Assembly (NCBI RefSeq): GCF_000165425.1
Contig: NW_001799344.1
Location: 412,980 to 476,979, forward strand
Reading direction: 5' to 3'
Source of the DNA: Paramecium tetraurelia
Taxonomy: Eukaryota; Ciliophora; Oligohymenophorea; Peniculida; Parameciidae
DNA: 64,000 nt
Shown: in pieces, positions 6,069 to 40,234 of the stretch
Numbering within the stretch: position 1 is the first letter of the stretch
How the letters are laid out: each line of letters begins with the position of its first letter
Notes under the pieces: generated by a model
Seen by the model: only the letters and a program-made list of their open reading frames with translations
Databases searched by the model: none
Told to the model about the DNA's origin: nothing
Program-made: the position numbers and the translations under genes

Positions 6069-9000
6069 TCACAATTTGACCCATTTAGCTAAAATGAATA
6101 ACAAAGCATCAATCATTATAGGTTTTTACAAGCAATCATGAAATGGTAGCTTTTTTAGAGCTATTTTGCTCTCGTCATCCTAAAATCCAATCAATCCAAT
6201 TAGTCTTGTATCTTTTTAATATTCATTTAAAACAGCCTTAATTTTTGCACAATCTTGGCTGAATTATTCATTCACATACTCAACTCCAACAAATACAATA
6301 TGATATCCTTTACAACAAGTTTTGTATTGTGAAAATTGCTTCCTTAATTAATCTACAATATGCATTCTTTGCATAGTATAAATGTAAGGAATTTTGAGAT
6401 TGCTCAGTTGATGTGAGATAGCATATAAATCAAAGTCATTCTATTCACAAATTAAAATCTTAGGACACTAAAATTGAATTACTATAATATACTTGGCATT
6501 TGTAAATAAATTACTATTATTTAATTCTTTCCATCTTTTCAAAACAATCTAATAATTCATTTGGACCTAAATTAACTGAAGAAATTCTCATTGAAGAATA
6601 GACTGAGGATCGTCCTCCAAAGGTAAGAAGAGAATCTCTTTATTTAGATGTAAGCTATTATGCTATCTAAGGATGTAGTCTTGATTAGATAAAACTGACT
6701 GAAATTTTTCTCGCTTTTGGTTCTTTAACGCAAATGATAGTATCAAGAAATTAAGAATGTTGTAGTTTCTATTCCTTTTTCTGTATTTTATCATCTAATT
6801 AAAAACTTGATTTGCTAGATTATTCATCCCCATCAGGGTTATTCATTTCAGCTTTTGAGTCCGAGGATGATGAACTTTGTTATGAGTCGTCTTATTCTGA
6901 GATTTAAGAAACTGAGTAAGATTTGCCAGGTTATTGTTGATTATAAGAAAATTCAGATTATCCAAATTAGGGTATTTGAGGATCCTATTTGCCCGAAATA
7001 GTTTCTTCTTAGGATTCTCTTTTCATTTTTTTGAGTTTCTCTTAAATTTATATTCTGCTTATTTCTGTTAATCTTTATGATTAATGCCTTTTAAATTGGT
7101 CACTTTAACCATACACTTAATGAAATTGGGACTTGTTTGCAACCAATGCAGATTACCTTTTTTGTGTTAGCTGTTTATTGAAGTTTGGATTCTCATTCTT
7201 AATCAATAAGATAAAATAGAATTATGTGCCTTCTTCAGTCTTAATTGAATTGAATTCAAAAGGCATGATAGCAACAGCTAGGGATATATAGAAGGCTGTG
7301 AGAATAGAAAAAGAATATTATTTTGAAGTTGCAACTATGTCTGTCATTTATTTACTAACTAAAGTTTGTTATTTCAAGTGCTTGATGGTTTGTTCTACGC
7401 TTTCTAAGATTCCTTCGTTTACAGTTGTAGCCATGACCTTAATGATTATCTCTATGTGATCTGTCAATAATGGCGACTTTTAAGTGGAAATTTCGATGCT
7501 ACCATTAACAGTAACTTGAATGGATTTGACTATATTTTATGAATCTAAAAATTATTACTTAACAAACTTAACACAACTTGTCGAACTCTGTTTGGATCAG
7601 TTCTTAAGAACATTGGAACATTCTGTTTAATGTTAACTTGTATATTTAAGCCTCTAAATAAAGCTTGTGCTTTTATGATGTTTAAACAATCTGAAATGAA
7701 TTCTCTAGTGTGAATATCCATCAAGTTTCGGTCTAATTTATTCTTTTTATGCATAGTGACATAATCCTAAAAGTCATTTGCAGTGCTTATTAATAATTTG
7801 CAACCTGCCAATGCTGGATCAATATATTAGTTTTATAAATCCTGATTGACTTCTTTCTATTTTAGATTAATAGAAACAAATTACTTGGACCAGTTCTAAC
7901 ATTGACAATGTGCAATTCAAAGGTTCTTTGATTTTCTAGGAAATGGTTTGTATAATGTCATCACTATTTTTTAGATATTGTTAGAGTTAGAGAATGAATG
8001 GTTCTTCAGTTAAATCGTTGATGTAGATCAGAATTTGAGGTTTACTTTACATAATCACGGGATTCAAAATGACTTGAGTGTACAGTTTGTCTAGTTATAC
8101 TGATTGGAAAATACCTTTTTTGATATAAATCTTCAAGGAAAAGTCCAAGGCGAAATTTGTTAAATTATATTTGATGTGAGAAAAAGCAAGCAGATGTTCG
8201 ATTAAGGTTTGCATTTACATTTTCCTACAAAAGAACTGTATTTCTTTCTTTTCTTCAAATTGTACATTCTCAAACAATATGTTCTATGTTCAAATACATT
8301 AATATATTAGTACTCAAGGGTTTAAGTAAATTTGATGAAGTTACTGATGTCTTTACTTCTATGAAAGCTGGGCAATATGGTGCATGATTCTTCAGAAAGC
8401 AATCCAAAATCATACAATTCCAACTGAGTCAACTATGGATTTAACTAATCATTGGTCAAAACAATATGGGACATGAATGAATTTATTATTCTTATTGGTT
8501 GTTAGGCATTTTCAAAAATGTAGATTCCACATTGAAAATTCACCAATAAAAATTCATACTACTATTCTAATTGCTTCAAATTGTTTAGATTTTCAAGATC
8601 CTCATTTGTTATGTTTTGGATGTTATTTCTTTTATTTTATGGTTCTGTCATTTCTCTCTAGGTATTTGTATAAAGGGCTCTTTGAGTGTGTTATGGGCTG
8701 AAGTTCCTATATAACACGGTTTCGTTTGAATTTTAAGTTTGATATAAGTTATAAATCAACAAAGATTAGATCATAAGATGTCCAAAAATGATCCTTGTTG
8801 ATCCTATCACTTCTAAATTGTCAGTAAATGAAGGGAATCTATTATCAATGCGTTTATAATACCTAAATAAAGTGTAAAACAGCGAAAATAAAATTACAAG
8901 ACTCTTGCAAAGCTATGACTCAATTGCAATCAGAAACAATATCATGATTCCATAAATCTCAAATGCATAACTTCTTTGATCATATTCATTAGTATATATT

Positions 9001-9271
9001 AAGTCATAATTAGTTTCACACCATAAAATTATTAGACTGAAATATTTCAACATTGTGATTATATTTATTAAGAGAGCAGTTTCCTTCTTTAATTTACTCA
9101 TTGCAATATGAAAAGCAATTATCAAAAACACTTAGATCTAAAAATGTTCACTATTTTAATTACCATTATGCGATAGATGAAAACCAGTTTTTGTCCTTCT
9201 ATTTCGTAATTCAGAGCTTAAGCTATGGTTAAAACAATATCGAAGCACTAATAGGAGGATATGATAGTCAT
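6069..9271 (-). CDS. hybrid histidine-kinase-like protein 1 (degenerate catalytic sites)
   Basis: Large minus-strand gene with an N-terminal membrane region (hydrophobic segments encoded at about 8900-9140), a long middle part, a HisKA-like dimerisation helix (about 7900-7960), a HATPase-like region (about 7100-7650) and a C-terminal receiver domain (about 6069-6480). The H-box reads ISQKIKEPLN: Gln (TAG at 7936-7938) stands where kinases have the phosphorylated His. The N-box region (TDPNRVRQVVLSLL, then KSIQVTVNG after a 29-nt intron) lacks the usual second Asn. The receiver strand reads HIVFVGVEYV, with Gly where the phospho-accepting Asp should be, although a late QKP keeps the conserved Lys. 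Several short introns are needed (for example GTAATTAAAATAG..., 26 nt, near the N terminus); exact exon borders in the middle are not resolved. Probably a membrane-anchored pseudokinase scaffold. Its paralogue follows 106 bp away on the same strand. Confidence 0.75.
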
Positions 9272-9377
9272 GGTCGATTTCCACAAAATAAAATGCTCAT
9301 ATGTCTCTGGGTTTAACTTAAAATAATTTGATAGTATGTTCATTTATTAGTATATAAATTATTTATTAATTTAACAA

Positions 9378-12300
9378 TCACAATTTCACCCACTTAGCTA
9401 ATATAAACAATAACGCATCTATCATCAATGGTTTTGATAAGAAATCATGAAATGGCAACTTCTTTATAGCATTCCTATTGTCATCATCCTGAAACCCTAT
9501 TAATCCTATAATCCGAGCTTCCTTTTTAAATTGAGAGTTGATGTTTTTAATTAAGTTACACTGTTCCCCTAATTCTTCATCGACATACTCTACACTAATA
9601 AATATCAATTAGTATCCCTTGCAACAAGACTTTTCAACCTCATACGCAGTTTTTAATTTCTCGTGTATTTGAGTTCTCTACATGATGTAATCAAAATTCA
9701 TTCCAATATTACCAAGCTAATGAGAGACAGCATATAAATCAAAATCGTTTTACTCACAAATCAGAATTTTAGGACACTACAAATATAAGATTATAAGACT
9801 TACTTAGCATTTTTAGGTGTATTTTTATTGTTTAATTTTTTCCATCTTCTCAAAACAGTCTATTAAATCGTTTGGTTACATTATACTAGCCGAATATCTC
9901 ATGGATGAGAAGATACTTGATCTTCCCCCAAATGTTAGAACTGAGTCTCTTTTGTTGTTCGAAATATTGTTATTGTAAGTGTAATTTATTGATTATTACA
10001 TTATTACCAAAGGAGAATCATCTTCATTTATTTTCCCAGTCTTATTGTATAAAAATTAATCCAGTTGAACTCCTAAGTCTAAACTATTATGAGAACTCTC
10101 CTTTGCCCCTTTTGATTCCTTTGAATCCTACTCAGACACTATTGATATATCTGATTTCGAGTGAGAAATCACCTATTTAATCTTTCTGCTTTGATCCTAA
10201 GATTTTATTGTTTTAAAAGTGGGTAGAAAATCAATATCAATATCTCCTTGGGATGTTCTCGGTACAATGAAACGAGACTAATTTTATTATCCAAAGGATG
10301 TTGATAATTTCATTGCCTAATCTTTTTTTTAGGGTTGATTACCTAAACCTTGGGATTATGACTGCAATTTCTATTACTGTAACGGTTATTGTTTCAATTT
10401 CTATTTTTCCATTTACCCTTGAATTGTTATGCTGGGTTTATCATACAGACCTTATCCTGATGATTAATATCTTTTGAATCCTTGATCAATTTAATAAGAC
10501 TGTTTAAAGTTTAATTGTTGAATGCTGAGAGCAGATTATCGTTTGAAATTTAATTGTTAAGAGAAGGTTGGATTTTAGTTTTGAATTTAAATAATGAAAC
10601 AAATCTCTTCATGATCTATGTTTTTCTCATAATGATATTCGAATGGGATTGTAGAAATGCTAAGGGATAAACAAAATGCTATCAAAATAGATTGACTATA
10701 TTTTCGACCTGCATTTGCCAAATCGATCATTGTAGATGTCATCAAATTTTAGGATTTAAAAAATCTCACTGTTTTATCAATAGTTTTTAGCACCGATTAA
10801 TTCATTTCTGATGCATGTACTTTTATCATAAGTTCAATGTGATCCTGCATCAAAATTGATTTGTTTGCTGAAACTACAATTGTTCCATTTATTGTTGCCT
10901 GAATTGAACTTACTAGTAAATTTAATAGGATTTATCTCAATCTATTAGGATCTGTTCTAAAAAAAGCAGGGACATTATGCCGAATATTAACTTAGATCTA
11001 TAGTCCTCTGAATAATGCCTGTGATTTTATTATGTTTATTGAATCAGTTACGAATTCCCTAATTTAACTTTATATTATATGGATTACCTTATGTGAACAT
11101 CCATTTGACATAGTTCCAGTTTTCCCTTTTTTCTAATAGTGACATAGTCTAAAATATCGTTGGCTGTACTAATCAATAATTTACAACCTGCAAGGGCTGG
11201 ATTTAAAAACTTTTCCTGAATTTCAAACGGAACAGAATGCTACATATGGAAAGCTAATTAATACTATTGTTATTTCCAGCATTGAAATGGTGCAATTCAA
11301 AGGTTACTTAATTTTCTATGATATGTCTGAGACTAATATATCGCTATTTTAATTAAACTAATTCAATTGTGTCATGAATGGTTCTTCAGTAAGGTCTGAT
11401 ACAAATAAGACTAACTAAGGCTTGTGTCTTTACAATATTGGGGAGAGCACTACACTGGTATATAGATTATCTAAATTTGGATTAACTTAAATTACCTTAT
11501 TTCAGGTATATTTTAAGAGAGAAATCTATTAAGTTTTGACATTGATTGAATTTGAAATGTTAAAACGGAATCAGGTGTTCAATTAAAGTTTTAATTTTCA
11601 TGGATTTATGAAAAAATTACACTTCTTTTAGTCCAATGTTTCCATTTTCATAATTTATGCTCTAAGCACAATAATAATTATTCAAATACTTACTCAAGAG
11701 TTTGCATGAATTTGATAAAATTGGCTATGTCTTTGCTTCTGTGGAATTTAGGTAAAACCGTTAAATTGTCTTCAAAGGCAATTCCGAAATCAAATATCTC
11801 TGAATTCAGGAATTCGTCACTTAATTGATCATCCTTTAGTACTAGATGTGACATGTAAGGGTTGATTGACTTAACTGCACTTTATAAGTTGTCTAAAACA
11901 AATATTCCTATTTATATATTATTTAAGACATTTTCATAAAACTAGTCCAAGCTTTACCTTTCTGTGTCCAGTCTGTTATCTTCAGATATAACGACTTCGT
12001 TTTCTTTAAGTTGTTATGTATTTCTGTTCTTGATCTCGTAATCTTGTTGATTCAGGTATGTAGAAATCCGCCATTGTTAATTTGGTTGAGATTGTCTGTT
12101 GCTGTGTATGGGAAGATAGTTGTTGGACTGTTGACCCAACATTACAAGTTGATTGTTCAATTACTTCTTCTGTTATGGCAATTACAACAAATATATTTAA
12201 AATGCTATGTGTATTAATACTATCCTAATTGAAGAAAGAATATCGATTTTATTTTAGAATAGTTAGATTCTATCCTGTTATGATGTATATATACCGAAAA

Positions 12301-12667
12301 AGAGAGTATAATAGCGAAAATAATAGAGAAGTTGTTTAGCATATTTGAGATTCTTGCAATAGCACCAAACCAAGCATAAGAGTTTAGATTTCTGCTGTAT
12401 AACTAGCATAGGGTTTCTTCAATTCATAAAATAAATAATAGTCAGTTTCAGTCCAGCAAATAGAAAGTAAAATAAAATATGTAAAAGTAGCAACATTTAG
12501 AAATCCATTTCTAAATTTTCTTAAAAACTTAAAAATCAACCAAAATAAAACCAATAACCCTGCTTGAACCTATGAATATAATTCATTTATACAATAATTC
12601 TCACTATTAACATTATTCTTGCAACATCCACCTTTTAAGTGCTTACATCAATAGTTGAGATAATCAT
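9378..12667 (-). CDS. hybrid histidine-kinase-like protein 2 (degenerate catalytic sites)
   Basis: Tandem paralogue of the preceding gene with the same layout. After a start at 12667 and a 23-nt intron comes a region of several membrane segments (VQAGLLVLFWLIFKFLRKF and following), then a HisKA-like helix at about 11240-11330, a HATPase-like region and a receiver domain at 9378-9790. The H-box reads ISQKIKQPLN, again with Gln (TAG at 11316-11318) in place of His. The N-box region reads NLLVSSIQATING, without the usual Asn. The receiver strand reads YQLIFISVEYV, with Ser in place of Asp, while SKP keeps the conserved Lys. Interior exon borders are approximate. The two copies agree closely at the C terminus (both end DALLFILAKWVKL), so the loss of catalytic residues predates their duplication or was kept in both. 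Confidence 0.75.
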
Positions 12668-13437
12668 ATCGAAGAGTTAGTAAATGGATATAATATTTAT
12701 GACTTAGGTGTGCTGTTATATGTTCGTATAAGGCTATGAGTATATGGAAAAATAACCCTTAAGATTATTTATCATAAGATTAAGAGATTTATATAAATTA
12801 ATATAATAGATGTGAAATAAAGCATCAGAAGAAAATAATAATACTATTAGCATTCAATATTTTTGAGAATACAGAAAATCCTCTTAAATTATATTTAATT
12901 AAAAGAATCCTTTTTTAGTATTATATATGTTTAAGAATGGGATGTCGAACTGTAAGAATAAATCATCATAGCAATGAATTTTCATGTCTAAAAAAGTGAA
13001 AGTCAATCAGAAAAATTTAAATGATATTTCTTAAGTTATTATATCATAGCATCCTACTCAAAATTAATTTATTTGACTATTGAAGATGAGGATAACAAAA
13101 AGTGTTGACACTTGTGGTATCTTTATTCACTTTTTATAATTTATATTATAATTCAGTAGATTCAGAAATATTAAAGAAAATCGATGTAAATTGTACACTA
13201 TAAAAAATTATCTTTGACTTATTAGATAAAAGAGTAATTAACAATAATAGAAGTTTGAATTTGATGGAAAAATGCGTCACGAATAATTAATTAGAGCTTT
13301 AAGAGTGATGGTGTGACTAAATTTTTATGTGAATATCTGGACATTTATATTTGATCAATATTTTAATTATTTTGTCATCATGGATACTCAATTTTTTACA
13401 AGCAGCACAAGGTACGATTTGAATTTATAGAATTAGT
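12668..13437. other. 770-bp AT-rich spacer
   Basis: Divergent region between the histidine-kinase-like gene and a plus-strand gene. Short open frames exist around 12940-13110 (one begins ATGGGATGTCGA), but none extends beyond about 40 codons or shows family features, so I do not call a gene. Confidence 0.45.
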
Positions 13438-31844: not shown

Positions 31845-33877
31845 ATGAGTAAAATTAAAGTGTTGAGTGTCATAGGCAATCCTGACTTAATACATTTCAG
31901 AACTCTTCAGAAGACTGAAAGAAAAAAGACATATGAGATTTAAGAAATGCATGAGGTATAGACTTTCTTGAATATACTATCAGTCAGAATATGATCACGA
32001 AATGAAAATTCTCAAACGAGATGCCTCCCTGAGAATCTAACTAAAAAGATTGCAACCATTATCTAACCAAGAGCCCTTTACAATTGATGATTCTTTTACC
32101 TCCAAAACTGTTAAAAGGTGGACATAATTTATAGTAACTTAGGCCATTGTTGTTAATTCAAAATGGTACTCCTATGGTGCATTCTAATAGACGTACCAAA
32201 TTTACTCAAAGTTTAATTAACTAAGCCTATGAATCCTAGCTATCTTTTTTTAATTCAAGAAAGAACAGTATATACTATGATATTTATATAGCCTACGTAT
32301 AAATGATACTATCAATTGATGAATAACTCTATCCAATAATAATTGAATTGTATACAGAATATGCCCCCAAAGCATGCGAAAACTTTGTAAAGTTTTGCGA
32401 AGGTGTCACGATAGATGGAGATTATTATACATATAAAAATACTAAGTTTTAGAAATTTAAACCAAATGGTATTTACAATTATAACTTAAGGATTCTTATA
32501 AGGTGGATAATTTGCAAAGAAAGTGTCTATATATGGAGATTACTTTGAAGATGAATCCTATGCCCTATAACATGATTGTGAAGGTATCATAGGATAAGTA
32601 AATGATGGATTTCAACATACAAATCACTCCTAATTTTACATTACACTATCCTCAATGAGTTACTTTAACTTTAAAAGAGTTGCATTTGGGAAAGTCATAA
32701 GAGGAATGAAATAGTTTTCAAAAATTTTAAAAAAAGATTAAATTTCTCCCAACATAATCATCCAGGAATGTGGACGATATGATCAATAAGCGTAAATACG
32801 AATGAAGTTAGAGAAATTTTCTGAAGATTTTGCAAGTGTGTTACCTTAAAATGCTGAATCATTCAATAAGTTTATTGATGCTGAACAGGATAAACACAGT
32901 GAAGCTTAAGGAGATTTTACCAAATTAATGAAGTTTTTGGTTGAATAAATGAAATAGATTTCGAAATTTGCATATTCGTTAACTGCAATAAAGAAAGCAA
33001 TATTATAATTGAATGAATAATTTCAAAACAATCAATTATGTTTGATGTTATACATATTAGACAATCAATAAGTCTTATTAGCTGATAACTAATAGGGAAA
33101 ATATCTTGTAGTATTTAGGGCAATAGAGGGTACTGATTCATTTAGAGCATCGGCATTTATTGTATTTAAGAAATAAACAACGATGTTCAAAAATGTGAAT
33201 TTGAATGATCTGAAATAGAGTGGAGAACAAGTGGTGGGAATATGTTATTGTGTTTATGGAACAACAACTCAATTGGTCTTTGGAACTGGTTATAATTTGA
33301 GTATGTTCACACTTTAGAACAGTGAATTCAAATTATAATAAAAAGAGTATGTAGATGATTTGATAATGATAGACTATAAATCCCCAAAACTGAAACATTT
33401 TATTGTTCAGATATCAACGATGATTTTATATAATAAAAAATCATTTCTAGTTTACCCACTAATAACATGAGGTACACAAATAGTATCTTTACAACTTTAC
33501 ATCGTGTAGTAAGACTTGGAGGTCTGGCTATGTATAAGGATGTGACCATTTTCGAGGCAATGATTTGTGCATTCACTTTAGCAAGATCATGGGGTTGGTC
33601 ATTTTGTGCAGGAACAAGTATATAATCTATCGCTAATTAGCTACATTCAATTAAATAAAGGTCAAAAATGTTAACCAATTAACTTATCTTTATTTAGGTT
33701 AATAGAAATGGGTCTAGAAAATAGAGAATCATTTTTTATCAATAGTGTGAGTAATTAAATAATTTGTGAAGAATGTGTAATTATAATAATTTAGTAAATG
33801 AATCATATTAAAACAAATTCGAGATCCCTGCAACATAAAGCTAGTCCCTCTTTATTTTTGAACTTGTTGGGATTTGA
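31845..33877 (+). CDS. cyclophilin fused to degenerate fructose-1,6-bisphosphatase domain
   Basis: One long spliced frame of 624 residues with six introns (28, 25, 22, 26, 37 and 20 nt); the spliced length is exactly 625 codons. The N-terminal third after a charged leader carries a cyclophilin domain: IIIELYTEYAPKACENFVKF, KFKPNGFLQGGQFAKK and FAKK..GMKQFSKIL..IIIQECG. It runs in frame into a fructose-bisphosphatase-like domain: GKYLVVFRAIEGTDSF aligns with the catalytic GKYVVCFDPLDGSS, CVYGTTTQL with the hydrophobic core, and RYTNSIFTTLHRVVRLGG with RYVGSMVADVHRTLVYGG. The metal-binding acidic residues of DPLDGS are replaced (R-A-I-E-G-T), so it is probably not active. The final intron is weaker; the 3' end overlaps a convergent gene by about 75 bp. 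Confidence 0.75.
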
Positions 33878-35433: not shown

Positions 35434-36348
35434 ATGAGTTAAATTGAATAACTTTGCCAAGACTCCAATTTATCATGCGGAAGGGGAATTTTCATAGGAA
35501 TTTATGCTGGATTAATTTTTGCAATTTCAATCTATTGTTTAATAAAGCTTTATGGATTTATGGGCAGAATATCCTACGAAATGATTCCTTTGACCACATG
35601 TGCCATTCAATCTTCTTTGCATTTCATCAATGACCTCTTTTTAGTTACAAACTCTTTATAAATCGTTATAATTTACTTTTGTTTACAAACATTCATATTG
35701 ATTTCGCAAAGCTTTTTTCATTTGTACTACAAAATGACGTATTCGAATGAAGAATTTTAAGGATATCGAAGGAAATAAAAGTATAGCTTGTTAATATTTT
35801 ATATTCTATTTACAACCATAATCCTAGTATACTTGATTTAAATAGATGATTAGAATTGTTTGGCCTATTTTAATGTAGGATTAGTTCTTTAATTCATAAT
35901 AATTTTATTTAGTGTGTTAATATCAATACTATATGGTTAGAAATTAAAATAAGTTATGAACAAACATGAATAAACAAACGTGACAAAAATAGCAAACTAT
36001 TAAACGACAGCTGTGTAGATAGTTTTGAGCACTACTGCAATTTTTGAATTTATTATGTCAATTTTATCACTTACCACATTTTAAGGATTGTTTTGTAATT
36101 TACCATTAAATAATTCTAACGATGATGGATTTACATCTGGAGAGAATGTATATTTGACTTTCTTCTCCATTATAGAAATGACTCCTTGTATTTTAGTACC
36201 TTTAATTTTTTTCTACCTCCCACAAATATCATAACAATAAGACAAAAAGCAAGAGATTAACTTGAATGACACATTTTTATTATAATCTGCAAGACCGTCT
36301 TTGGATTTCAGTGGATTAATAAATATTTCTATTGAATTAAAGTAATGA
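35434..36348 (+). CDS. seven-span membrane protein, TOM1/THH1-like
   Basis: 304-residue single-exon protein with about seven hydrophobic helices: FIGIYAGLIFAISIYCLI, FLVTNSLQIVIIYFCLQTFI, LLIFYILFTTIILVYL, LVLQFIIILFSVLISIL, AVQIVLSTTAIFEFIMSIL and YLTFFSIIEMTPCILVPLIF being the clearest, with a polar C-terminal tail. The layout resembles the THH1/TOM1/TOM3 family of vacuolar membrane proteins; I infer this from topology and the terminal EMTPCILVPL pattern only. Spacing to the HMG gene is 39 bp. Confidence 0.62.
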
Positions 36349-36437
36349 AATTATTCACACTTTATTTAAAAATATATTAAGAGATTTTGTGTATACAACA
36401 GAAATTGGCGCAATATAATTATATAATTAATTAAAAA

Positions 36438-38898
<2,461 letters not shown>

Positions 38899-38944
38899 TT
38901 TATATTATGTAATTTTATATAATATTATATTTTTTAATTAACAG

Positions 38945-40234
38945 ATGGACTCCCCTTTAAAAGATATGACTGGAACGATTGTCAATAAGTATTATTCACA
39001 TTAAATTAGGCAATATAAGCTCATTAAGAAATTAGGAGCTGGTGCTTTTGGCGAAATTTATTCTTCGTAATCAAATGGATTAGAATATGCTATTAAAATA
39101 GAGAAATCTGATTCAAAACATCCATAGTTAGAATTCGAATCAAAACTATATCACTATTTGAATAATCATAATGGATAAGGAATTCCTAAATATTATGGCT
39201 ATCATTAGCAAGATGGTTATAACTTTTTAGTTATGGAGTTACTTGGCCAATCACTTGAGGATGTTTTTTCTGAAAACAATCGTATATTTACGTTGCAAAC
39301 AGTTTGTGTCTTGGGAATTCAAATGTTGGAATGCATAGAGTTTCTACATAGCAAATAATTCATTCATAGAGACATTAAACCAGATAATTTTTTGATGGGC
39401 AAATCCTAAAAAGATAGAGTGTATCTGGTAGACTATGGATTAGCTAAGAGGTATATTTCAAAGGATCTTCACATTCCTTACAAAGATAATAAAGCCTTAA
39501 CTGGAACTGCCAGATATGCTTCTATCAATACACATCTTGGAATAGAGTAATCAAGAAGAGATGATTTAGAATCTTTAGCCTATGTGTTAATGTATTTTTT
39601 AAGAGGGTCACTCCCTTGGCAAAATTTAAGAGCAAATAATCAAAAAGAAAAATACGATAGAATCATGGAAAAAAAATTAGCTACATCTTCAGAAACATTA
39701 TGCAAGAATTACCCGTAATAATTATTATAATTCGTTGATTATACAAAGAATTTAAAATTTGATGAGAAACCAGATTATTAATTCATTAAAAATCTCTTTA
39801 TTTAAATTATGCAAGAAAATGAATTAAGAATGGAATACATTTATGACTGGGATGATGAAGATACATAAAGAGATAAAATTTAAATTAGAAATGAGGAGAA
39901 AACCAATTTACTAAAAATGAATAAATAAACCAGCAATACCTAATAACGAATAAATAAGCATTAAGAAAATAAAAATATCAATAGCAATAGTATTTATATG
40001 AGAAATTGTAGCAATGTGAATAATAAATACAGTATTGGTAGAACAAAAACCAATTCTATTGGATCAATTAATAAAATTGTTGTCACTAAAACGAAATAAA
40101 TTACTAATAATACAATTAATAGTTTGACTAATCAAAACACATTGCCAAATAATAATAATAATAATAATAATAAATTACATCAAAACTTAGCGAAATAGAT
40201 TATAAAGAAGCATTCTAGTTTGCATTACTAATGA
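38945..40234 (+). CDS. casein kinase 1
   Basis: 429-residue Ser/Thr kinase of the CK1 family, single exon. Landmarks: GAGAFGEI glycine loop, [16 protein letters not shown], catalytic loop [10 protein letters not shown] (about residue 141), VDYGLAK in place of DFG, and the CK1 signature [30 protein letters not shown] follows. The C-terminal tail (about residues 300-429) is Asn/Gln/Lys-rich with an Asn run at about 40150-40170 and no palmitoylation motif. Ciliates use CK1 widely; this one is a generalist-type kinase. Confidence 0.95.

Follow-up and report, generated by a model that had tools for sequence, protein, structure and literature searches.

A conserved family of hybrid histidine kinase-like genes in Paramecium tetraurelia that appears to have lost its catalytic residues

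Two head-to-tail genes and their relatives

We analysed a 64,000-nucleotide stretch of the Paramecium tetraurelia genome (assembly GCF_000165425.1, contig NW_001799344.1, positions 412,980 to 476,979; hereafter the window, numbered from its first letter) in which two neighbouring genes, A and B, lie head to tail on the minus strand when read with the ciliate code. An earlier note, made from the letters alone, had described them as adjacent paralogues with histidine-kinase/receiver architecture, and spliced gene models and profile comparisons bore this out. Both proteins follow the order hydrophobic N-terminus, middle region, HisKA-type helix pair, ATPase-like region, Gln/Ser-rich linker and receiver-like domain. 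They are predicted to be membrane-anchored pseudo-hybrid histidine kinases, in which the hybrid domain order survives without the residues that ATP binding, autophosphorylation and phosphotransfer require. The note had spoken of a pair; a genome search instead gave a family of eight genes, and we hold it very probable, on sequence grounds, that this family is both conserved and catalytically dead.

Gene A (9378..12667, minus strand; 1035 amino acids) gave a spliced model without internal stop, ending at TGA. Its seven introns, all GTA..TAG and 23-29 nt long, lie at 12592-12570, 12294-12270, 11689-11662, 11495-11471, 11264-11240, 11087-11059 and 9803-9777; a median of 25 nt is given for P. tetraurelia introns (PMC12862383). 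The true start of A is probably the in-frame ATG at 12775, which adds 36 codons (12668..12775, minus strand; open frame MINNLKGYF...). The upstream sequence of a duplicate, A2, resembles this extension by eye, and other members also align upstream of 12667. Gene B (6069..9271, minus strand; 1005 amino acids) was modelled with six GTA..TAG introns (9163-9138, 8862-8839, 8114-8091, 7884-7857, 7558-7530 and 6492-6468) and one uncertain junction near 8313-8253, where 8297-8269 was removed. The claim that the frames stay open over about 3 kb each holds for the models, except at one junction, where removal of a regular GTA..TAG intron fails to keep B and most relatives in frame. A Kyte-Doolittle scan showed three to four hydrophobic N-terminal segments in both proteins. 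In A the peaks at residues 20-38, 47-65 and 127-145 correspond approximately to 12185..12610 on the minus strand (limits converted by hand), and A2 has further peaks near residues 78-106. For the middle region, full-length Pfam scans of A and B yielded no more than a PAS match in A, below threshold (E 0.072).

The assembly searched comprises 69,072,372 bases in 231 contigs; the window lies on C172, and other contigs are likewise named C159, C160, C164, C173, C175 and C191. Searching with A revealed a second tandem pair, A2 and B2, on C159 and single genes on C164, C175, C160 and C191 (called here by their contigs), near full-length relatives of 933-1039 amino acids by spliced alignment. A and A2 share 88% amino acid identity over 1034 codons, B and B2 87% over 1004 codons. 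An MCM-like gene elsewhere in the window (36345..38756) is duplicated (91%) on C159 with order and orientation preserved; A/B and A2/B2 are therefore segmental duplicates, and the tandem arrangement was retained on both segments. Such duplicates, the ciliate code and introns of about 25 nt are what a Paramecium of the aurelia group would show. The intact paralogue that the note proposed to look for did not turn up: among the matches listed for A, the N-terminal module and the receiver (E <= 1 for the latter two), in searches that combined a loose first look with scoring of the best candidates only, there was no further family member, intact or dead. Many intact kinases of other families are present in the genome. 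In a tree with 21 active kinases (four of these rows flagged as long-branched, midpoint root for drawing only) the eight members fell on one side of a branch with support 100/100 and a stem of 1.74, and the history is most simply explained by one dead ancestor. The C164 member carries a separate single-base frame break at about base 2880 of C164:406500-411500, due to mutation or to an assembly error.

Substitutions in the kinase core and the receiver-like domain

The H-boxes of A and B read ISQKIK[Q/E]PLN, as the earlier note had reported, with Gln instead of His: Gln417 in A (11316..11318, minus strand) and Gln411 in B (7936..7938, minus strand), both encoded by TAG. In a gap-free alignment of the family with 43 H-boxes of the same genome, this Gln falls on the phospho-acceptor His. 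It was also gap-free on His in both printed alignments of a profile of the eight cores with solved histidine kinases, where, in addition, the second N-box Asn position was occupied by another residue. We rejected the idea that another frame or exon structure restores His, because the match of Gln to His needs no gap against either the active kinases or the solved structures. The acid adjoining His (Glu in 29 and Asp in 14 of the 43 H-boxes), which has a role in phosphatase reactions, is Lys in seven members of the family and Arg in one.

For the N-box, the proposed lack of the usual Asn needed narrowing. The second Asn is lost in A (Ser535, 10908..10910, minus strand) and B (Lys529, 7525..7527, minus strand), and in all eight members it is replaced by Ser, Lys or Thr. 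The first is kept in A (Asn531) and lost only in B of the two (Ser525); six of the eight members retain it, the other exception being Asp in C191. Neither G1 (D.G.G) nor G2 (G.G) motifs were visible by eye in the aligned stretches of the family; the G2 pattern matched in just 6 of 40 active-kinase regions of this genome (described below), so its absence alone is weak evidence.

With Pfam, HisKA was found in all eight core segments at E <= 1 (best 1.2e-6; A 19.1 bits against a cut-off of 26.9) and HATPase_c in three of the eight (best 1.9e-4). The eight-core profile matched the solved kinases 7p8e (7.7e-20, the best), RetS (6dk7, 1.3e-14) and 7z8n (1.8e-12), the last being GacS according to a literature passage. 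The comparison with domain profiles that had been suggested as a check gave a divided result. In the full-length proteins HisKA was detected below the cut-off in both A and B, HATPase_c was sub-cut-off in A and unlisted in B, and Response_reg was unlisted in both; the receiver was recovered by profile-profile comparison of the family alignment.

The receiver-like domain is encoded by one exon in A (9378..9776, minus strand; CPKILICEQ...LAKWVKL) and one in B (6069..6467, minus strand), which are 60% identical and were treated in the same hhalign family alignment. The expected substitutions of Asp were there, with Ser964 in A (9594..9596, minus strand) and Gly934 in B (6285..6287, minus strand). 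Across the family this site is Ser (A, A2), Gly (B, B2, C175, C191, C164) or Ala (C160). The acidic pair is reduced to Glu with Gln or Ser (Glu and Gln in A and B) and the Thr position is Ile or Met, while the conserved Lys is retained in all eight. Compared by hhalign with nine active receivers of the same genome, a subset of twenty extracted, the eight-member receiver alignment gave 97.5% and an E of 5.8e-12. We base the receiver assignment on this comparison together with the C-terminal position in a hybrid kinase layout. Single receiver segments gave Response_reg in three of eight cases at E <= 1 (best 0.023), and other Pfam families equalled or beat it there, e.g. GldB_lipo at 3.5e-4. That the proteins are apparently non-catalytic follows from the lost residues.

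How other histidine kinases of this genome behave at the same sites was seen in a genome-wide Pfam scan, which gave 124 HisKA places at E <= 0.001, none of them inside the eight genes. The active-kinase sample consisted of the 40 regions with the best Pfam scores, of 112. A profile built from it detected 46 H-boxes at E <= 1e-5, with His in 45 and Phe in one; since the sample holds the best Pfam scorers, other dead kinases are understated. Simple patterns found the N-box in 21 of the 40 regions, G1 in 30, and the receiver Asp in 32. The active hybrid kinases thus resemble the family in the order of DHp, ATPase and receiver and in a PLNC-like H-box context, and differ from it in that 45 of 46 H-boxes keep His. 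The Phe-bearing kinase (C173:442250-451000, HisKA near C173:448610) reads SFELRTPLN and carries, in the same frame, the Asp-bearing receiver motif VIFMDIEMP; it may be an independent pseudo-kinase. The histidine kinase family is described as greatly expanded in ciliates (PMC3341644).

Selection and a shared junction

We calculated the ratio of nonsynonymous to synonymous changes (dN/dS) by the Nei-Gojobori method with the ciliate code for the three usable duplicate pairs; in the five other pairs dS was saturated across the whole gene. The values were 0.059 for A/A2 (dN 0.063, dS 1.074), 0.052 for B/B2 (dN 0.073, dS 1.390) and 0.076 for C175/C160 (dN 0.078, dS 1.027). By region, A/A2 gave 0.020 for DHp and 0.012 for the receiver. 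The Gln at the His site is found in 8/8 members and is encoded by TAG in four (A, B, A2, C191), CAG in two (B2, C164), TAA in C175 and CAA in C160, so that B/B2 and C175/C160 differ there in a purely synonymous way. The codon varies and the residue does not, which suggests selection for Gln itself at the phospho-acceptor position. In our view these synonymous codons are the best argument that the dead state is maintained. The recurrence of the losses in all eight members is more than chance. With the low dN/dS, the constant Gln and the tandem pair kept on both segments, the claim that the genes are selected and not decaying has good support. The eight copies, which form one clade, evolve under strong purifying selection.

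All eight genes also share an unusual junction. A GTA..AG stretch of 26-32 nt directly follows the same two bases of one Glu codon, and its complete removal breaks the frame in every gene; a longer version of 34 nt in A fits. In A the stretch is GTA..TAG, 32 nt (11662..11693, minus strand), and the frame closes with 28 or 34 nt. In B it is GTA..TAG, 30 nt (8284..8313, minus strand), and the frame is lost on removal. GT-AG introns of 18-36 nt were tried at this place in all eight genes, followed by a cut shortened by one base (TA..TAG). The alternative cuts that closed the frame were 28 nt in A, 29 nt (ending GAG) or 23 nt in B, 29 nt (GTT..AAG) in C164 and 21 nt (ending GAG) in C175 and C160. 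For A2, B2 and C191 there was no frame-closing GT-AG cut among introns of 18-36 nt, and spliced alignments had to assume a frame shift. When the cut was one base short of the TAG-ended stretch, the models of A2, B2 and C164 came into frame, as did A and B by arithmetic; C175, C160 and C191 need another cut length and each has an in-frame TGA at the junction. Since the duplicates share this oddity, random decay does not account for it; splicing may be non-canonical here, or the frame anomaly may be conserved as such. A retained germline element, TA-bounded and 26-28 bp long, was also considered but is not put forward.

Elsewhere in the window, a single open frame at 32316-33467 (plus strand) contains a cyclophilin-type match followed by a fructose-1,6-bisphosphatase match, from either a gene fusion or two genes that lack an intervening stop. 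At 36345-40231 (plus strand) the MCM helicase-like gene is directly followed by a protein kinase gene.

Putative role of the family and comparison with known systems

We infer that the family proteins would function by binding and not by chemistry, in line with the scaffold or decoy role that the earlier note put forward. Dimers, homo- or heteromeric, would be built through the retained helix pair (DHp), and docking of the receiver-like domain would be on a DHp, either in the same protein or in one of the many active kinases. A signal sensed at the membrane or the middle region would then alter docking and so turn the activity of a catalytic partner up or down. Such conserved dead hybrid kinases working by binding or docking are our best explanation as a whole, which we hold tentatively and just short of an even call; that they act in this way on other two-component proteins is a shade more tentative. 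A further step, in which the doubly dead family with its private membrane module forms a dedicated control layer above a very large eukaryotic complement of active histidine kinases, and in which the pseudo-receiver, retained for a face that docks on DHp, plugs into active kinases and gates them on a signal, seems unlikely. Possible partners are the 124 HisKA places outside the family. In support of docking, invariant columns of the receiver alignment gather in helix 1 (11 of 16) and strand5-helix5 (16 of 21), together 27/37 against 22/97 elsewhere (Fisher p 1.6e-7); the nine active receivers have 5/37 invariant columns in the same segments and 7/88 elsewhere. In 300 label shuffles over all pairs of column windows of those sizes the maximum was 26, against 27 observed, and such shuffling ignores natural clustering. 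In receiver-DHp and receiver-HPt complexes the contact is made by the helix 1/strand5-helix5 side. Conservation of this side therefore suggests that the domain docks on a helix bundle, in the same protein or in an active kinase.

Several observations weigh against the docking proposal. The two receiver segments and their limits were chosen after the invariant list had been seen, the eight family rows are far closer to one another than the nine active rows, and the conserved face could be kept for folding. Matches of the receiver to solved structures were weak, the best (0.019) being a histidine kinase receiver, below which the SLN1 and ETR1 receivers were intermixed with unrelated proteins. 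Structure models were poor (mean pLDDT 46 and 50, from window-only alignments of two and three rows). With the low-confidence receiver model as query, a fold search listed Rossmann-like designs first and receivers lower, none of them at E <= 0.001, and was set aside as evidence. In the kinase core, the match to solved kinases spans about columns 4-146 of 242 (to 160 for 7z8n) and ends shortly after the N-box, and no recognised match in solved kinases was found for the second half of the ATPase region. The N-terminal module was matched only in the eight genes, which leaves no active kinase sharing this sensor as a partner. HPt (PF01627) was not found in the genome by Pfam and had no first-look candidates, in a search that was positive in 8 of 14 control genomes and that a divergent HPt can escape; HPt partners of a phosphorelay may be highly diverged or absent. 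The full-length proteins themselves are models, given the common junction misfit.

The closest competitor would place the family outside the phosphorelay, as receptors comparable to type II ethylene receptors: the membrane region would sense, an unrelated kinase or channel would be signalled, and histidine kinases would be left untouched. It fits the data nearly as well, and we give it somewhat less credit than docking on two-component proteins, the receiver being conserved on the very side that contacts DHp or HPt in known receivers. The layout of membrane helices, sensor region, degenerate kinase and receiver is similar, the N-terminal module is private to the family among the matches listed, and the receiver is degenerate as well. 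Type II receptors are also described as lacking some or all essential kinase residues (PMC4579252).

It is improbable that the junction separates two distinct proteins, an N-terminal one with the membrane and middle regions and a C-terminal pseudo-kinase. The broken frame on full junction removal in all eight genes and the in-frame TGA in C175, C160 and C191 would suit such a split. Coding similarity, however, reaches the junction from both sides and leaves no promoter space, and a Met that A, A2, B, B2 and C164 have soon after the junction is missing in C175, C160 and C191.

A core with other chemistry, Ser/Thr kinase-like or phosphatase activity, is still harder to sustain, as replacement of the second N-box Asn in 8/8 members and the lack of visible G1 and G2 make an ATP pocket unlikely, and the phosphatase-linked acid beside His is Lys or Arg. 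In its favour are the conservation of the family and the Ser/Thr kinase activity reported for higher-plant phytochromes with kinase-like domains (PMC6944256). Decay into pseudogenes, which the lost catalytic residues and the extra frame break in C164 might recall, is hardly credible with dN/dS of 0.052-0.076 in three pairs, eight copies retained and common invariant columns, and was rejected for A and B on dN/dS.

Returning to conserved dead hybrid kinases, the earlier note had called them little described. This can hold for the present combination and lineage but not beyond, for non-catalytic histidine kinases are known in bacteria and plants, including bacterial ones with Gln at His. Dead kinases and dead receivers are already known separately (DivL, type II ethylene receptors, pseudo-receivers); their combination in a ciliate would be new. 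Among the titles and abstract openings listed, none dealt with pseudo-histidine kinases in ciliates, subscription papers being mostly outside the search. To our knowledge, few studies have asked how the many ciliate histidine kinases keep their signalling specific. A conserved family with the architecture and without the chemistry gives a handle on whether pseudokinases gate two-component signalling in a eukaryote.

The family profile matches both kinase cores of the RetS/GacS system of Pseudomonas; this system is bacterial and RetS retains its H-box His, whereas His is lost in all eight members here. RetS blocks GacS via a DHp-DHp heterodimer (PMC12148439). The ShkA pseudo-receiver, similarly a receiver without phosphorylation residues within a hybrid kinase, binds the HisKA domain of ShkA (PMC12632262). 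The ShkA core is active and autophosphorylates according to the same source, whereas core and receiver are both degenerate here. Type II (ETR2-like) ethylene receptors of plants resemble the predicted proteins in being membrane receptors of eukaryotes whose histidine kinase region is degenerate; a receiver is present in some of them (PMC4579252). They differ by their ethylene-binding and GAF regions and by a conserved receiver Asp mentioned in that source; this Asp is lost here, and Pfam scans of A and B at E <= 1 gave no ethylene-receptor or GAF family. About 1% of sequenced kinases are reported to have a substituted His, with Gln among the residues named (PMC5361649). One dead kinase, DivL of Caulobacter, controls CckA, and it shares with the family the kinase fold and a replaced His (Tyr in DivL), serving as sensor and allosteric partner of an active kinase (PMC5361649). 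DivL is bacterial; the present family of eight genes is eukaryotic, and its losses extend to the N-box Asn and to a C-terminal receiver. In kind, A, B and their relatives would be pseudo-histidine kinases like DivL, with the kinase core kept in sequence, the catalytic residue lost and the gene conserved.

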